Of a stretch of 20,644 nt of DNA, positions 2,475-11,354 are shown one piece after another; the first letter of the stretch is position 1; each line of letters starts with the position of its first letter. The position numbers and the translations under genes are program-made. The notes beneath the pieces are model-generated. The model saw nothing but the letters and a program-made list of their open reading frames with translations, was not told the origin of the DNA and did no database searches. Location: the IMG/VR virus record IMGVR_UViG_3300044530_000219, positions 1-20,644 of that record; one strand, written 5' to 3'. This stretch comes from a virus.

Positions 2475-3068
2475 TTAGCTAAACATCTCGTCATCGTCAA
2501 GGGAAGGTGCTGGCTTTGATGGTGCTGGCTTGCTAGGTGCGGGTTTAGCGGCTGGTGCTGGCGCAGAGAACTCAGGCTCTGCTTGCGCTGCACCTTCTTG
2601 CAAAGCCGCGGGTCTAGCTACCCAACCTGTGACAGTGAACTCAGGTACACGAGTGCTTCCCTTGCCAACCTTTTCGGGGCGTGAACCCGTGTACTCAACC
2701 ACGGGCAACTTACCAGCATTAGCGCCAGCTTGCGCTTGCACTTGCTTCCACAGACCTTCCAAGCCCATGTTAGCGCCTGCGCCATTGGCACTGAACTCTG
2801 CGACTCCCATAGTCTTGTTATAGAAAGTAGCCTTAAAGCCACGCTTATGTTCGGCTGTAGGTTGCGCTGATTTACGACCAAGAGACTCATCAGGTTGAAA
2901 TTCAAAGACTCCAGTTGCAATCAACATCCAACCAGTTTGCAAGTTCTCGTGATCGAAAACAAACTTTTCGAGTGTGAATTCACCATCTTGGTTTGACCAA
3001 GCATTAGCTTGTGGCGAGAACCTGATGTAGTTGCCAGAGCCGCCAGAGTTTGAAAGGTTTAAGTTCAT
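2475..3068 (-). CDS. Single-stranded DNA-binding protein-like (acidic C-terminal tail)
   Basis: A 197-residue protein with a beta-rich N-terminal domain of about 150 residues. A low-complexity linker follows, with three KPAPS repeats near 175-189, and the protein ends in an acidic tail LDDDEMFS. A globular fold, Pro/Ala linker and acidic tip closing on Phe is the layout of bacterial and phage SSBs, where the tail recruits replication partners. Its place between the methyltransferase and the primase-helicase fits a role coating ssDNA. A Shine-Dalgarno-like AGGAAA precedes the ATG. A strong terminator directly downstream suggests it is the most abundant product of the operon. No signature OB-fold motif can be assigned by eye, so the call rests on layout and context. 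Confidence 0.65.
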   Translation of the reverse strand: MNLNLSNSGGSGNYIRFSPQANAWSNQDGEFTLEKFVFDHENLQTGWMLIATGVFEFQPDESLGRKSAQPTAEHKRGFKATFYNKTMGVAEFSANGAGANMGLEGLWKQVQAQAGANAGKLPVVEYTGSRPEKVGKGSTRVPEFTVTGWVARPAALQEGAAQAEPEFSAPAPAAKPAPSKPAPSKPAPSLDDDEMFS

Positions 3069-3124
3069 AAAGTTTCCTGTTTAAAGTTAAAGTTGAAGTG
3101 GCTTGTGCCACAGGGTTGGGGGAT

Positions 3125-3799
3125 TCATATTAAAGATGTTTGTTCTTGCTTGGGTCTTACATCTTCAAACAATCTTGGTTGCGCTACTGCTTGCTCAATG
3201 CGTTGGCAAGCAATGTCAAAGTATTTAGGTTCACGTTCAATACCAATAAACTTGCGCCCCATCTGGATGGCAGCTACGCCTGTTGTGCCGCTACCCATAA
3301 AGGGGTCGAGGATTGTTTCTGGGTTTCCTGCTTGGTTAATGCACCAACGCATAACTGCCAAAGGCTTTTGAGTTGGATGTTGCTTACCATCTTTTAAAGC
3401 TAATGATCTTGCATAATTTATTCTTCTTGATGCTTTATCTTGATTAGTCCATGCAAGTTCAAAATCTGCAAGAGAAAATCCATCTTGTCCTTTATCCCAA
3501 GACAACCATTGCATGGATGGTTTTAACCAATCTGTAAAATAATTACCGCCCCAAATTATTACAATTTTTCCCAAAGGTAAAAACAAGTCAAATGTTTTTT
3601 TATCTGGTCTTTGCTTATCCCATCCAGATATTTCCCATTGATTCCAGCCATTTTCTTTTTTTCCCGCATGAGAATCTGCCCCAATGCCATAAGGCGGGTC
3701 AGTAATCACCGCATCCACCTTGTCTAAGGTTAGCAGTATGTCCATGCAGTCCCCCAAGTACAGGGTTGCATCTCCGATTTTTTCGATTCTTGTATTCAT
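3125..3799 (-). CDS. DNA methyltransferase, N6-adenine/N4-cytosine, beta class
   Basis: A 224-residue S-adenosylmethionine-dependent methyltransferase of the N6_N4_Mtase family. The catalytic motif IV DPPYGIG is at 34-40, HPTQKP at 141-146, and the SAM-binding motif I DPFMGSGTTG at 165-174. Motif IV before motif I, with the target-recognition region between them, is the beta-class order. The specificity is not readable. It may modify phage DNA to evade host restriction; no cognate restriction gene is present. Codons for residues of about 47-146 are about 34% GC, while the flanks I counted are 53-57%, so the recognition region seems to have been exchanged. The Shine-Dalgarno is poor, and the start is 10 bp after the DUF2800 stop. 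Confidence 0.92.
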   Translation of the reverse strand: MNTRIEKIGDATLYLGDCMDILLTLDKVDAVITDPPYGIGADSHAGKKENGWNQWEISGWDKQRPDKKTFDLFLPLGKIVIIWGGNYFTDWLKPSMQWLSWDKGQDGFSLADFELAWTNQDKASRRINYARSLALKDGKQHPTQKPLAVMRWCINQAGNPETILDPFMGSGTTGVAAIQMGRKFIGIEREPKYFDIACQRIEQAVAQPRLFEDVRPKQEQTSLI

Positions 3800-3809
3800 G
3801 GGGTAGTGA

Positions 3810-4898
3810 TTATTGAGTTAAACCTTTGTCCCGTGCAAGCGTTAATCCGCTGGATATGCGGGAAGTTAACGCTTCAAGGTTCGGCTTTTGGTCTTTCGTT
3901 AGCAGTTTCTCAGCTTGTGCAGGGGTGATGAGTTCGTTCTTCGTTACTTGCCTTGGGTCAAGTCCAAGAGCCAAGAGTCCAGCATAAGCCTCTTTCTCAT
4001 CAGTCCACGACCTCAACGCTCGTTTAGGTTGCAGTTGCCATCCATCAATGACAGAACCTGATTCCATGCGTTTTAAGGCGTGATCTCGTACAGCCTTGAT
4101 GTAGCCCTCAACCATGTCAAACTTAGTCAGCAAGACGCTGATTTGACTCTCTGTGAGCATCTCTACAGGGGGTGCAGTGGCAACTACTTCAGCGATGTTT
4201 GCTTGTGCAGGGCAGATAGTTCTTGCGTTGCAGTATTGGCAAGCAGAGTCTGATGGCACTGGCTGGAACAGTGGGTTCAGTGCATTCTCAATGGCAGGGA
4301 CTAAAACGTAGTGTTCCCAATCTACGAGTTCTTGCGTTGTCATTGAGTGCTTGCGAGTCTCACCATGATGGGGTTGGATAATCCACAACTCGACCTTATC
4401 AATGTCTTGGTAGAGGTTGCCATCTTCAAATGCTGCCAATGCGTAAAGGCGTAACTGGTCATTGTCAGCGTCAACATATCCACGACCAGTTTTCAGGTCT
4501 GCAATGATGAGTTTGCGTTTCTGTTTGCTGACTCCAATTACGTCAGTTGTACCGCCTACCTTGGCTTTGTAAGTGTCTTGGTATTGCAGGAACTTCTCGA
4601 CTGTGACGCTACCCTTACCTAGTTCATCCTCAATCGCCCAAATAGCTTTCAGATGCTCTAGCGCCATCTCACAATTTTCCTCGGTCATCTTGATACCTTC
4701 AACGACTGTACCTACTGACTTCATGGGGTCAGAGTCCAACTGGTAGCAAGTCTCCGCCAAGGCATGAATGGCAGTCCCGATCTTCGCCGCTTCTCCACCC
4801 TCCACATAGGGCATCAGTGCTGAAAGTCTGGCACTGGCGGGACAGGCAATCCATCGGGATGCCGCTGATGCTCTAAGGCTTAGTTGTTTGATTGCCAT
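3810..4898 (-). CDS. DUF2800-type PD-(D/E)XK nuclease, Cas4/RecB-like with probable Fe-S cluster
   Basis: A 362-residue protein of the RecB/Cas4-like exonuclease group, matching phage DUF2800 proteins. The N-terminus has SRWIACPAS (C19) and GTAIHALAE (H45). The nuclease core follows: D119 in GGTTDVIG, D134-L-K136 in IIADLKTG, and Q148 in NDQLRLYALA. Three more cysteines, C220-x2-C223-x5-C229, together with C19 match the pattern that holds a 4Fe-4S cluster in Cas4 and AddB. Expected activity is DNA end resection or recombination. In this operon it sits between the SSB, methyltransferase and RuvC genes, supporting a recombination-dependent replication role. The start overlaps the upstream small gene by 19 bp. 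Confidence 0.85.
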   Translation of the reverse strand: MAIKQLSLRASAASRWIACPASARLSALMPYVEGGEAAKIGTAIHALAETCYQLDSDPMKSVGTVVEGIKMTEENCEMALEHLKAIWAIEDELGKGSVTVEKFLQYQDTYKAKVGGTTDVIGVSKQKRKLIIADLKTGRGYVDADNDQLRLYALAAFEDGNLYQDIDKVELWIIQPHHGETRKHSMTTQELVDWEHYVLVPAIENALNPLFQPVPSDSACQYCNARTICPAQANIAEVVATAPPVEMLTESQISVLLTKFDMVEGYIKAVRDHALKRMESGSVIDGWQLQPKRALRSWTDEKEAYAGLLALGLDPRQVTKNELITPAQAEKLLTKDQKPNLEALTSRISSGLTLARDKGLTQ

Positions 4899-5104
4899 GA
4901 TGCTCTTTCAATGTGATGGTTTTCAATGAGTAGTTGGTAGGCTATTTGCCTTGTTTCATTTGAGACTGCATGACCTAAGTCTTCGGGGTCTAACAGACGC
5001 TTGATGAAGACTACAGTCTGTTGGTTCTGCTTGCGTTCTTGCTCAAGTTGTGAGCCAAGCCAGACGATATGTTCACGCAAGATTTGCCGTTCTTTGTCAT
5101 CCAT
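4880..5104 (-). CDS. Small charged helical protein, unknown function
   Basis: A 74-residue product starting MDDKERQILREHIVWL, with heptad-like Gln/Glu/Lys-rich helices and no cysteines. The frame is open further upstream to 5218, but that part lies inside the RuvC gene. The ATG at 5104-5102 overlaps the RuvC stop by only 8 bp, matching the tight packing of neighbours, so I take it as the start. The 3' end overlaps the DUF2800 start by 19 bp. The gap between those two well-supported genes would otherwise be empty for nearly 200 bp, which supports coding. I do not recognise the family; an accessory factor for one of its neighbours is possible. Confidence 0.6.
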   Translation of the reverse strand: MDDKERQILREHIVWLGSQLEQERKQNQQTVVFIKRLLDPEDLGHAVSNETRQIAYQLLIENHHIERASWQSNN

Positions 5105-5588
5105 GACGCAATCCCCAACAAGCAATGAGTGCTGCATCAGCACGACCATCATCTTTAACCCTTTTGAACAGGTCAACATTCCAAGGGAAGACTTCCATTG
5201 CTCTAGCCCTAGCGCCATCTTTGCCGCCTGAAACTCCCATAGCTTTCTGCCAAACTTGAGGAGTTACGAGAGTGGACTTGATTGATCTAGCCGCTATAAC
5301 GCCTTCTATAGCCCCAAGAGAGCGACCAAAGCTAAAGACGCTTGTTACCCCTTGCCCTGCCATTGCAAACACCTTTTCGATGTACGCTTCTTCAGGCTTA
5401 AACATATCAAGGATTTCAATCAGTTCGGGGATGCTGATCTGACGCTTGGCTTTGCCATTGCGAGTTAGGGTGACAGTTGGCATATCGACTACACCAGTTA
5501 ATGTTTCGCCCCTCATCATGGCTATAGCGCCGTTAAGCCCTACATCAATGCCAATGATGCGTTTGGGGGTGAAGAATTGAGTGGTCAT
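5097..5588 (-). CDS. ruvC-like: RuvC-like Holliday junction resolvase
   Basis: A 163-residue RNase H-fold endonuclease of the phage RuvC group, expected to resolve branched DNA before packaging. The acidic catalytic set is visible: D15 in RIIGIDVG, E71 in AYIEKV, and D147 with D151 in DDGRADAALIA near the C-terminus. The length matches bacterial RuvC. The ATG overlaps the stop of the upstream HTH gene as ATGA, and AGAGG lies about 6 nt before it, so the two are translationally coupled. With the DUF2800 nuclease and SSB it forms a recombination set. Confidence 0.9.
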   Translation of the reverse strand: MTTQFFTPKRIIGIDVGLNGAIAMMRGETLTGVVDMPTVTLTRNGKAKRQISIPELIEILDMFKPEEAYIEKVFAMAGQGVTSVFSFGRSLGAIEGVIAARSIKSTLVTPQVWQKAMGVSGGKDGARARAMEVFPWNVDLFKRVKDDGRADAALIACWGLRHG

Positions 5589-5812
5589 TCTGTACCTCTG
5601 TTTAAAGCCATAAGACGCTGCTGGATTAGGGAATCTACCGATTCTTCTAGCCGTTGTATTGAAGTCACCAATGGTATGGTTCTACCAGTGGCATAACGAG
5701 ATACCTGAGAGGGGTCAAAGCCAGCGTGTCTAGCTACATCAGTAATGGTGTAGCCAGCCTTTTCAGCCTTTTCCCTAATGTTTTCAATGGTTTGCATGGT
5801 TGGAGTGTTCAT
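5585..5812 (-). CDS. Small XRE-type helix-turn-helix regulator
   Basis: A 75-residue DNA-binding protein. A Cro/C1-type HTH is visible at about 22-45 (TITDVARHAGFDPSQVSRYA), followed by a helix rich in Leu, Glu and Gln that could dimerise. It is the first gene of the leftward operon and faces the first gene of the rightward operon across a 152 bp control region, which is the position of a Cro- or CI-like switch protein. No Shine-Dalgarno precedes the ATG at 5812, and the predicted promoter would start RNA only a few bases upstream, so the mRNA may be leaderless. A second in-frame ATG at 5797 gives a shorter alternative. It lacks the C-terminal cleavage domain of a full CI repressor. Confidence 0.8.
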   Translation of the reverse strand: MNTPTMQTIENIREKAEKAGYTITDVARHAGFDPSQVSRYATGRTIPLVTSIQRLEESVDSLIQQRLMALNRGTE

Positions 5813-5820
5813 GGGTAAGG

Positions 5821-5850
5821 ATTCTAGGGAAGATTGGATTGATTAGTCAA
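5821..5850 (-). promoter_or_regulatory. Leftward sigma70-like promoter for the HTH/replication operon
   Basis: On the minus strand TTGACT (5850-5845) and TAGAAT (5826-5821) are separated by 18 bp. Each has one mismatch to the sigma70 consensus. The expected transcription start, about 7 bases past the -10, falls at about 5812-5815, next to the HTH ATG at 5812. That predicts a leaderless or near-leaderless transcript. Confidence 0.6.
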
Positions 5851-5859
5851 GTGCTATCT

Positions 5860-5895
5860 GATTAAATACCCTAGTGAAATGTGTGAGATTAAATA
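5860..5895. repeat. GATTAAATA direct repeat pair between divergent promoters
   Basis: GATTAAATA occurs at 5860-5868 and again at 5887-5895, a 27 bp period that is about two and a half helical turns. Both copies lie between the two opposed -35 boxes, where an operator for the HTH protein or a phage activator would be expected. The pair could be chance in an AT-rich gap. Confidence 0.4.
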
Positions 5896-5903
5896 GGTAG
5901 GGG

Positions 5904-5931
5904 TTGACTTAGTAGTCCAACTCTATATGAT
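5904..5931 (+). promoter_or_regulatory. Rightward sigma70-like promoter for the small-gene operon
   Basis: TTGACT (5904-5909) and TATGAT (5926-5931) are separated by 16 bp, each one mismatch from the sigma70 consensus. The expected start is near 5938, leaving a leader of about 27 nt with AGGAG at 5953-5957 before the ATG at 5965. The -35 box lies in an imperfect inverted repeat, GTTGACT-TAGT-AGTCCAAC (5903-5921), that could serve as an operator. Confidence 0.7.
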
Positions 5932-5964
5932 TGGCAACATCAACAACCAAGCAGGAGATTCAAA

Positions 5965-6594
5965 ATGGCTAACAACTTCTCACCAGTTATCGAAAACCCA
6001 GTGGCATATCACAATGCCGTTAAAAGCTACATCATTGCTAACGCTCAGAAAACTTGGCGCACCAAGACTGATCGTGCTGGCGAAATTGAAAGTGCTTTGA
6101 CCGCTGGCATCATACATAACAGTCATGGTGACTTTATGGGCTATGAAGATAGCTTTATTGGCTCTATGGCTAACTCTTTTTATACATGGGGCAAACTCAG
6201 CGAAAAGCAGTGCGCCGCTATCCTTAAAGGCATTGATGCCAAGGCTGCTCGTAAAGCTGAGTGGGCTGACAAAGAAGCTGCCTTGAATGCCTCACGCACC
6301 CACTTGGGTGAAGTTGGTGCTAAGTTGACCCTTACCCTCACCATTGGTCATATCGTTGTTTTAGATGGTGCGTATGGCACTAGCTACATCTACATCATGG
6401 AAGATGCCGACAAAAATGTTGTCATCTACAAAGGTAACTCTGATGCTGTTGCTTGGACTCCAGAGGGTACTGTGCGTAGCAAGGGTGACACTCTCACCAT
6501 CACCGCCACTGTTAAAGATCATGGTGTTCGCAATGGAGTCAAGCAGACTGTCATCCAGCGCCCCAAAGCTGTTAAAGAGTTAGTAGCCGCCTAA
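5965..6594 (+). CDS. Early phage protein with helical N-terminus and beta-rich C-terminus, unknown function
   Basis: A 209-residue product, first and largest of the rightward operon, directly after a good promoter and AGGAG site. Residues of about 10-115 look helical, including FYTWGKLSEKQCAAILKGI near 72-90, a pattern common in phage proteins of unknown role. Residues of about 119-203 alternate beta strands (KLTLTLTIGHIVVL, then SYIYIMEDADKNVVIYKG) and end with TITATVKDHGVRNGVKQTV and QRPK. That strand layout could be an OB-like fold, but this is inference. Its position suggests high early expression. Confidence 0.85.
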   Translation: MANNFSPVIENPVAYHNAVKSYIIANAQKTWRTKTDRAGEIESALTAGIIHNSHGDFMGYEDSFIGSMANSFYTWGKLSEKQCAAILKGIDAKAARKAEWADKEAALNASRTHLGEVGAKLTLTLTIGHIVVLDGAYGTSYIYIMEDADKNVVIYKGNSDAVAWTPEGTVRSKGDTLTITATVKDHGVRNGVKQTVIQRPKAVKELVAA

Positions 6595-6604
6595 TCAACC
6601 CAAC

Positions 6605-6618
6605 GGGGCGCAAGCCCC
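6605..6618 (+). terminator. GGGGC-GCAA-GCCCC hairpin, possible attenuator
   Basis: A perfect 5 bp GC-rich stem closed by a GCAA tetraloop (GNRA type) lies 10 bp past the 209-residue gene. Only a short ATCTTTC follows, so it is a weak terminator at best. It could reduce read-through into the small genes or protect the upstream mRNA from 3' decay. Confidence 0.4.
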
Positions 6619-6646
6619 ATCTTTCAACCTTAAAGGAGAATTGAAG

Positions 6647-6976
6647 ATGTTGACTCAAATGCCATTAATTGATTTGCATATCATGTCTGAAAATGATGAA
6701 TTACCAAATAATGTTGGATTCAAAATTGTTGGTGGGCGTACTATTTACAAATACATTGGATGGATGTGGAGACAATCTGATAAACAGATTTATCTGAATA
6801 AACACGATTGGTTTGTAGACAATGAAGAACGATCAAGACGCTACTTGTCTGATGATACTTTGATTGAAATTATTCCATTACAAAACTTAACTCAAACACC
6901 TTCATTCAACCACAACGCACCCTACAACGCTGAGTTCTTAGGCGCACAACCCGCTCGTGCTGGTCAAGACTATTAA
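6647..6976 (+). CDS. Small hypothetical phage protein, mosaic GC content
   Basis: A 109-residue product. The ATG at 6647 is chosen because AGGAG at 6634-6638 is 8 nt away; the in-frame TTG at 6641 would be too close to it. The N-terminal part (about 83 residues) has many aromatic residues, for example YKYIGWMWRQ and NKHDWFVDNEE, and could be a small mixed alpha/beta domain. The tail PSFNHNAPYNAEFLGAQPAR is polar and probably disordered. Codons up to about 6900 are about 32% GC (77 of 240 counted over 6661-6900). The next 60 bases are 55%, suggesting recombination inside the gene. I do not recognise a family. Confidence 0.75.
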   Translation: MLTQMPLIDLHIMSENDELPNNVGFKIVGGRTIYKYIGWMWRQSDKQIYLNKHDWFVDNEERSRRYLSDDTLIEIIPLQNLTQTPSFNHNAPYNAEFLGAQPARAGQDY

Positions 6977-10514: not shown

Positions 10515-10693
10515 TTCTTCTCCTGTTCGGGTTTAACTAACATCTCAGGGCAAGTACCAGCGGCGGTACAGATTGGGGGTTTACATTCAGCACTAGACCA
10601 ATTCAATGGGTCTTGGCAGGTATATCTGTACCTATCTGAACAAGCAGTCAGGACAGTGGTAAATATTATGATTTGAACAATATTTTTAATCAT
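10511..10693 (-). CDS. Small Cys-rich lipoprotein
   Basis: A 60-residue product with a signal peptide (MIKNIVQIIIFTTVLTACSD) and lipobox LTAC, lipidated at C18. The mature part has four more Cys, in RYTCQDPLNW, ECKPPICTAAGTC. I recall similar RYxCQDPxNW lipoproteins encoded beside holins in other phages, with no defined role. Possible roles are modulation of lysis or blocking superinfection at the periplasm. The ATG overlaps the HNH gene's stop as ATGA. Confidence 0.75.
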   Translation of the reverse strand: MIKNIVQIIIFTTVLTACSDRYRYTCQDPLNWSSAECKPPICTAAGTCPEMLVKPEQEKK

Positions 10694-11187
10694 GATGTAT
10701 GGTGCGTAAAGTATATGTTTTCTGTTGATTTTCTTGCAATAGATGCTTCTTCAGCAGTTTGAAAATATCCAATGTGAATAGCCTTTCTATTATGAGTAAT
10801 GTTTGCTGACCAAGGTTTACTTTTTAAACGCTTGTTGAAATGCACACCACGATAACCTGATGTATTTGTGCTTGTTCTAAACATATTTTCAGCGTTTTGT
10901 TTTGCAGTAGCAAGTCTAAGATTTGATATGCAGTTATTTGTTCGGCATCTATCAATATGATCTAAATTAATTGTTGGGAATTCACCATTAACATAAAGCC
11001 ACATAAGTCTATGTGCAAGATATTCTTTTCCATCAATCCCAATCTTTACATAACCATTGTGCATTAAACAACCAGCTTGTTTATCTCTCTTTCCTTTGCC
11101 ACCTGTGTTAGCTTTCCAAGTAAAAGTTCCTTTTTCTATATCAACAAAAAAAAGGTCTTCTAATCTCTTTTGCGTTAGTTTATTCAT
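10690..11187 (-). CDS. HNH endonuclease with AP2-like domain, probable homing endonuclease
   Basis: A 165-residue nuclease of the HNH_3 type. H59 in AHRLMW, D76-H77 in INLDHIDRCR and N89 in CISNLRLAT form the HNH metal site at about 59-95. A C-terminal AP2-like DNA-binding segment at about 111-155 contains SGYRGVHFNK, then KAIHIGYFQTAEEAS. That pair of domains is typical of free-standing phage homing endonucleases, which cut unoccupied alleles and spread by repair. The gene is about 34% GC (143 of 420 counted), lower than the lysis genes beside it, consistent with transfer. Its TGA fuses with the lipoprotein ATG, so the insertion is seamless. Confidence 0.9.
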   Translation of the reverse strand: MNKLTQKRLEDLFFVDIEKGTFTWKANTGGKGKRDKQAGCLMHNGYVKIGIDGKEYLAHRLMWLYVNGEFPTINLDHIDRCRTNNCISNLRLATAKQNAENMFRTSTNTSGYRGVHFNKRLKSKPWSANITHNRKAIHIGYFQTAEEASIARKSTENIYFTHHTS

Positions 11188-11189
11188 GT

Positions 11190-11354
11190 TTATTTTTCCT
11201 TTTCTCTTTCCTTTTGTTCAACTTGTCTTCTGAGTTTCTCGACCTTCTCTACCTGTTGGTTAACCTGATGCTTTGCCTCTAACGTGTCCAGCAGAATTAT
11301 GCCCATGATAGGCAACAGCAATATTACTAGAACACAACAGGCAATCCATCCCAC
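11190..11354 (-). CDS. Small membrane protein with C-terminal coiled coil
   Basis: A membrane helix (GWIACCVLVILLLPIMGIIL) is followed by a charged coiled coil (VNQQVEKVEKLRRQVEQKE). I give the short form starting at GTG 11354-11352, which shares its G with the upstream TAG (TAGTG) and has GGGA about 7 nt before it; the product is 54 residues. The frame is open upstream to an ATG at 11477, which would give 95 residues with a Ser/Pro-rich N-terminus but would overlap the 228-residue gene by 124 bp. Either is possible. The topology resembles a small i-spanin, but clear Rz/Rz1 genes lie downstream, so the role is open. Confidence 0.6.
   Translation of the reverse strand: MGWIACCVLVILLLPIMGIILLDTLEAKHQVNQQVEKVEKLRRQVEQKEREKEK

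Follow-up and report, generated by a model that had tools for sequence, protein, structure and literature searches.

The methyltransferase gene of a phage genome fragment has a GC-poor middle between ends of ordinary composition, and the question that this locus raises is whether one enzyme has been put together from parts of different descent. The window, that is the whole stretch of DNA analysed, comprises positions 1-20,644 of the IMG/VR virus record IMGVR_UViG_3300044530_000219 and is a 20.6-kb fragment. Within it the initial annotation had proposed a cassette swap in the methyltransferase. The reading favoured here, to which we give a probability of roughly 80%, is that phages exchange an interchangeable core on a conserved chassis, the core presumably being the specificity part, so that each exchange would bring a new anti-restriction pattern. 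The gene and its surroundings are as follows.

3125-3799, minus strand: DNA methyltransferase gene, 224 aa (open reading frame, start ATG, stop TGA)
3127-3799, minus strand: ORF-precise insert that separates the exonuclease gene from the following one and is lacking in most lineage members
3810-4898, minus strand: neighbouring PD-(D/E)XK exonuclease (DUF2800; PF10926, 3e-60; phrog_69)
2475-3068, minus strand: neighbouring conserved protein, conserved in 67 loci
5097-5588, minus strand: neighbouring RuvC-like Holliday junction resolvase (phrog_1770, 7.9e-30)

The gene product matches Pfam PF01555 (N6_N4_Mtase) above the curated cut-off (8.1e-25, 88.5 bits; cut-off 26.7) and phrog_67 at 4e-53, and scores 78.1 bits with the CcrM equivalog NF050803, below the threshold of 830. 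The beta-class motif order is present (DPPY at residues 34-37, HPTQKP at 141-146, DPFMGSGTT at 165-173); these correspond to motifs IV, X and I. Judged by motifs and domain matches, the 224-aa enzyme is a small DNA amino-methyltransferase of the beta class, apparently a phage orphan. Its setting is that of a phage, with phage exonuclease and virion/tail family matches in the window of a virus record. No cognate restriction enzyme was found among ten window proteins (PADLOC) or seven (Pfam) of the 20.6-kb fragment. The neighbour at 2475-3068 gave no Pfam or PHROG match, and is possibly, as a guess, an ssDNA-binding protein. Region 5109-5588 of the RuvC-like gene is 27-57% identical to L082, L083, L088 and L125, despite well-aligning exonuclease genes, and is kept at 68-97% in L084, L090 and L099; from these identities it appears to be a second mosaic site beside the methyltransferase locus.

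The lineage of the window was defined by scans with the neighbouring exonuclease (76 loci) and the downstream conserved protein (67 loci). The insertion site could be read in 71 of 80 lineage loci (nine were unreadable), and the exonuclease/next-gene junction is empty in 64 of the 71 and occupied by a methyltransferase in seven. In L082, L083, L084, L087, L095 and L100 the empty site reads CCCC joined directly to GAATCCCC; L082 and L083, the closest loci by exonuclease (99% and 98% identical to the window), are among those that carry no methyltransferase.

Phage methyltransferases usually serve to protect the phage from restriction by the host, and the window enzyme may well have that role too. 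An enzyme that serves phage gene regulation, packaging or replication timing, its core exchange being a by-product of general mosaicism, would agree with the finding of no restriction partner among the window proteins scanned in this 20.6-kb fragment, and with the apparent mosaicism of neighbouring replication genes (the RuvC region). Such an internal role is nevertheless unlikely: most of the lineage lacks the methyltransferase, so the gene is not essential, core turnover is far above chassis turnover, and lactococcal phage methyltransferases protect against HphI and DpnII (PMC4190342).

The seven occupied loci represent five distinct phages: window/L001, L014, L033, L009-L011 and L125. All five have a common chassis, with an N-terminus carrying IGDATLYLGDC and the tail PRLFEDVRPKQEQ(T/A)SLI, and on it they bear four cores (that of the window, one found in both L014 and L011, that of L033 and that of L125), which by sequence comparison are mutually unrelated. 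The parts of the window gene are:

3683-3799, minus strand: N-terminal chassis, residues 1-39, holding motif IV; common to the lineage and to unrelated phages
3689-3700, minus strand: motif IV, DPPY, residues 34-37
3380-3682, minus strand: exchangeable core, residues 40-140 (WGGNYF, WDK, ELAW and the ELAW-to-HPTQKP stretch), used for the amino acid identities
3362-3379, minus strand: motif X, HPTQKP, a frequent C-side alignment edge
3308-3379, minus strand: linker from motif X to motif I, residues 141-164, with variable C-side breakpoints (HSP edges) and intermediate core-type changes
3281-3307, minus strand: motif I, DPFMGSGTT, residues 165-173
3125-3307, minus strand: C-terminal chassis, residues 165-224, with the lineage-specific tail; 98-100% amino acid identity to L014, L033, L011 and L125
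3361-3660, minus strand: low-GC block nested in the exchanged tract (33.3% GC, GC3 0.19)

Independent acquisition of different complete methyltransferases at the same site, with no exchange inside the gene, would explain the ORF-precise insert, the seven occupied and 64 empty junctions among 71, and the absence of the gene from L082 and L083. The methyltransferase gene does move, as the chassis ends of L108 and L125 are nearer to the window than their flanks are. Whole-gene uptake alone is quite improbable, since the lineage-specific tail is found in all five phages with unrelated cores, and since reciprocal pairs exist in which the same core has different ends; mosaic genes already contradict it.

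Exchange of the core on a retained chassis is the reading to which the alignments point. From L014 and L033 the window differs little over the upstream genes (~86% DNA identity, 3684-5975 and 3684-5947) and below 3379 (85%), with nothing alignable in between. Amino acid identities to the window in core and C-terminal chassis are 26% and 98% for L033, 32% and 98% for L014, 34% and 100% for L011, and 13% and 98% for L125, while L002 has 73% in the core and 82% in the C-terminal chassis, and L003 has 70% in the core. Sliding identity between the window and four lineage members is 85-93% at the N end, 33-67% in the core and 80-98% at the C end. The L125 core, by its sequence, comes from another beta-class methyltransferase subfamily. 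Wider relatives, all on viral contigs, were sampled as the 80 stretches most like the window out of 202 (best 80 of 202), and turnover rates apply to that sample; most of these 80 (best 80 of 202) can be aligned to the window inside the gene only. The 82 methyltransferase sequences reduce to 69 distinct ones (13 exact duplicates, which were restored for the flank-identity bins) and 2346 pairs. Alignment A1 contains 66 of 69 rows (without L033, L062 and L125) and A2 contains 50 of 54 (without L263, L267, L278 and L284; L223, the same gene as L125, was entered as L125).

Breakpoints had been predicted near 3365 and 3665, and BLASTN edges do cluster on both sides. When the 68 unique relatives (best 80 of 202) were aligned to the window, 12 aligned straight through and one gave no match; all 56 N-side edges fall at 3675-3687, and the C-side edges fall at 3379-3385 (40/50) or 3310-3333 (9/50). 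In a quick tree of the ends (DNA, 294 columns) the window groups with L014, L011, L033 and L125 (SH-aLRT 82), and in a careful tree this five-member clade has UFBoot 98 yet SH-aLRT 42; support for the chassis clade is only moderate. The core tree, made without L125, groups the window with L002, L003 and L004 (SH-aLRT 98). In AU tests, the flank grouping forced on the core is rejected (118 log units, p 4e-95), as is the core grouping forced on the ends (100 log units, p 0.001). The grouping of the window with L002 alone is not rejected on the ends (p 0.08), which counts against the exchange reading, as does the N-terminal chassis of the window, which is no closer to L033 and L014 (74-79%) than to unrelated phages (86% to L002). 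The chassis segments are short and conserved, thus part of their high identity reflects constraint.

When L014 was taken as the parent of the chassis and L002 as that of the core, the 193 informative sites of a triplet test divided 43:5 outside and 22:123 inside a tract at residues 17-160, and none of 20000 permutations was as extreme. Other parents gave tracts 25-173, 25-160, 25-178 and 30-160, with 0/20000 permutations in all 10 triplets run. The window gene is thus a mosaic, with a chassis like that of the L014/L033 lineage and a core like that of L002; by the sequence evidence, chassis and flanking genome are of one lineage and the core is of another. The exchanged tract extends from about residues 17-40 to 147-178 and is larger than the GC block on both sides, as the triplet tracts reach beyond it. 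It carries motifs V-VIII, and often X, besides the TRD. The recipient in the exchange may have been either the window or its sisters. Alignment edges, the conflict between ends and core trees and the triplet tests all support the proposed cassette swap.

A middle that evolves very fast, through diversifying selection on the target-recognition region and with no exchange, would likewise leave the core as the least conserved part family-wide, as it is (mean pairwise amino acid identity over 2346 pairs: N-terminal chassis 85%, core 36%, C-terminal chassis 75%; sample from the best 80 of 202). This is very improbable: cores are discrete types (27 at 60% identity) that recur with other chassis, the window core is 73% identical to that of L002 and 26-32% to those of sisters with 86% flanks, the pair L050-L068 has a core 98% identical in DNA with ends at 70-81%, and the AU and triplet tests and the tree conflict stand against it. 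Metagenome misassembly, by which the ends of one phage gene would be joined to the core of another at conserved motifs, is hardly credible, for although nearly all sequences are metagenome contigs and the longest exact matches between the window and eight relatives that were checked are 41 nt (N side) and 54 nt (C side) long, the junctions recur in separate contigs (L001 is 99.7% identical to the window over 5479 nt), 16/16 near-identical pairs carry the same core, and the pattern recurs between two named bacterial strains, Sphingobium bisphenolivorans YL23 and Novosphingobium mathurense SM117, which have C ends at 89% DNA identity and cores at 18% amino acid identity.

Core exchange being the preferred reading, the GC-poor block that had first suggested it can be placed within the exchanged tract. 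The block is real: G+C amounts to 100/300 (33.3%) at 3361-3660, 62/120 (51.7%) at 3241-3360 and 33/60 (55%) at 3661-3720, and the earlier counts (101/300; 65/120, 54%; 34/60, 57%) were slightly off, with the picture unchanged. GC3 is 0.52 in codons 1-46, 0.19 in codons 47-146 and 0.38 in later codons. Equally GC-poor 300-nt intervals make up 1.5% of the record, and 45 of 5000 permutations of codon order within the gene gave a 100-codon stretch as GC-poor. The residue span given by the initial annotation (about 47-146) was right, the block covering residues 47-147; its location exactly between motifs IV and I was not, as the block ends with motif X (141-146), 18 residues short of motif I. The block also contains the conserved WGGNYF, W(x)WDK and ELAW, and is thus more than a target-recognition region.

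GC3 is lower in the core than in the ends in 56/68 unique relatives (best 80 of 202 stretches), so GC is a weak marker of exchange, its profile being in part common to the family; among these 68 (best 80 of 202), the dip is deeper than that of the window in L015 alone. GC content was considered as proof of exchange and found not decisive on account of this dip. Against a swap, a GC profile common to the family and the lack of a breakpoint had been named together; the former was found in part, and breakpoints are clearly present. Two further sites in the window are equally GC-poor, 6610-6921 and 10618-11264. The first is a GC-poor 300-nt stretch over a 111-aa ORF without a family assignment. 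The second, the longest low-GC stretch of the window, lies over an HNH endonuclease gene (10690-11187; phrog_99, weak AP2 match) that is probably a mobile homing-type gene.

Across the family, ends at least 85% identical are combined with cores at most 50% identical in 373/2346 pairs (69 distinct sequences; best 80 of 202), and cores are at least 5 points more alike than ends in 47/2346 (best 80 of 202). At the DNA level, L011 and L033 are 97% identical at the N end, 39% in the core and 91% at the C end, and L050 and L068 are 98% identical in the core and 70% at the C end. At 60% identity, 27 core types are present in the 69 sequences (best 80 of 202). For the label count the 13 types with at least two members were used (55 rows), and the 14 of 27 with a single member were left out. 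The chassis tree needs 38 core-type changes, where 12 is the lowest possible number and 500 shuffles gave 41.4 +- 1.6 (38 or fewer in 26 of them); a control tree built from alternate codons of the core needs 12, and a tree of the 24-codon X-to-I segment 25. The 294 columns resolve little, so core-type changes on the ends tree are also inflated. By this count, cores are spread almost at random over chassis and combined almost freely across the family. Pooled synonymous-codon identity (2346 pairs: N 0.54, core 0.44, X-I 0.48, C 0.49) was set aside as too weak alone, specific pairs being clearer.

Homologous flanks of at least 600 nt were available for 98 pairs (best 80 of 202), which are not independent of one another; 88 have cores at most 50% identical and eight have cores at least 85% identical. 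Once the duplicates are restored (pairs again not independent), the core is the same in 16/16 pairs with flanks at least 98% identical. Different cores are found in 3/4 pairs at 90-95% flank identity, 16/16 at 85-90% (19/20 for 85-95% combined), 10/10 at 80-85%, 18/20 at 75-80%, 52/61 at 70-75% and 33/36 at 60-70%. Of the 71 loci that have the L125 core, 40 match the family chassis at 60% identity or more in both ends and 10 stay below 50% in both, thus this core lives on quite different chassis too. In L258, L273, L276-L280, L282-L286 and L288 an L125-type core stands behind an unlike, GDLWLLGEHRLLCGDSTKAEDV-like N-terminal stretch, which appears to be a second chassis for it. L080 has tandem methyltransferases (2992-3663 and about 3738-4396) with the same chassis and unlike cores in one phage, possibly an intermediate or donor arrangement for exchange. 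Relatives L327-L406 are found in many proteobacterial genomes (Rhodoferax, Paraburkholderia, Rhodanobacter, Variovorax and others), where they probably reside in prophages.

The predicted structure of the window enzyme (pLDDT 87.9) has M.BceJIV (9c3s) as its best PDB match (Z 19.4, 185 residues, rmsd 2.9), followed among beta-class folds by CcrM (Z 18.2), MboIIA (Z 17.0) and RsrI (Z 15.1). The model of the L125 chimera (pLDDT 84.5; 9c3s match with Z 21.6, rmsd 2.2, 193 residues) is still predicted to fold as a whole methyltransferase. Going by strand order in the models, the strand bearing DPPY and that half of the sheet which holds motif I would come from the chassis, and the core would contribute the recognition segment together with the other strands.

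That recognition domains flanked by conserved ends can be swapped has been established for Type III Mod genes (PMC3311624, PMC3983042), such as modA of Neisseria/Haemophilus and those of H. pylori, where the domain moves as one block both inside a species and across species (PMC3311624). In these genes, a highly variable central recognition domain lies between conserved 5' and 3' portions that carry DPPY and FxGxG, and conserved ends around an exchanged centre are likewise what identities, trees, triplets and label count give for the window enzyme. In contrast to Mod, it has 224 aa (616 in the EcoP15I Mod chain), is found in phages, and has an exchanged piece that includes motifs V-VIII, that is half of the catalytic fold. 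There is no adjacent res gene, the neighbours being the exonuclease and the conserved protein, thus the enzyme was not filed as a Type III system. No phase-variation simple repeats were found within 3125-3799; a TTAAAG run of 3.2 copies lies outside the gene at 3081-3099.

Tetart et al. in 1998 reportedly described T-even tail-fibre adhesins in which recombination between conserved motifs swaps specificity; that swapping alters receptor specificity, whereas the window case concerns DNA modification. Hill et al. in 1991 are said to have described how a plasmid-borne methylase exchanged a domain with a lactococcal phage, giving the phage a functional methylase domain; that would be a plasmid-phage event, unlike the family-wide chassis-and-core arrangement here. 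In variable islands of cryoconite phages, methyltransferases outnumber all other known genes (51, or 11% of those identified there), with recombination given as the explanation (PMC7468147); the variants described there are of whole genes, whereas here exchange takes place inside the gene on a fixed chassis, with core turnover measured. Actinophage methylases (Gosselin et al. 2023, PMC9957025) are sparsely distributed and recombine within the gene, but the mobile parts there are inteins, a homing endonuclease and the ShiLan domain, and not a specificity core. No description of small phage methyltransferases that exchange their cores on a fixed chassis was found in the open-access literature, which does not prove absence. 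TRD swapping in Type III Mod and variable phage-island methyltransferases are thus known; the fixed chassis, the freely exchanged half-fold cores and their measured turnover appear to be new.

As to mechanism, a double crossover between co-infecting phages or prophages would swap the core, with crossovers in two stretches of well-conserved DNA, one coding for motif IV and the other for motifs X/I. Agreement of the 36-nt junction stretches with their consensus is 91% (N side) and 87% (C side), exact matches of at least 15 nt are present at both ends in 719/2346 pairs (best 80 of 202), and the longest in the eight relatives checked are those of 41 and 54 nt given above. Conserved anchors with exact matches of at least 15 nt would be enough for homologous or annealing recombination, and the neighbouring exonuclease and RuvC-like products could assist the exchange. 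A dedicated switching device was considered and rejected, as repeats around the gene are only short and imperfect; the inverted pair 3053-3070/3810-3827 that flanks the gene (18 nt, 83% complementary) may be due to chance. No silent cassette was seen in the 20.6-kb fragment, which contains this one methyltransferase only.

By analogy with the family, the core probably sets the methylated sequence, so that a change of methylation target on core exchange, as the initial annotation had suggested, is to be expected, and each exchange would give the phage a new pattern of protection against host restriction. Selection for rare methylation patterns may keep core turnover fast. Beyond this locus, it is fairly likely that one standardised chassis draws on a common pool of specificity cores, some from other methyltransferase subfamilies, with turnover between 2% and 10-15% genome divergence, giving a combinatorial anti-restriction repertoire at the population level that is comparable to tail-fibre swapping. 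If this is right, the modification specificity carried by phages would move as fast as receptor specificity, and the family would amount to a collection of naturally chimeric enzymes built on a single chassis, so that recognition could be mapped by methylome comparison. One could also test directly if restriction is what drives the mosaicism of phage genes, and the unit of exchange, half a catalytic fold with the recognition segment, suggests where such enzymes tolerate crossovers.
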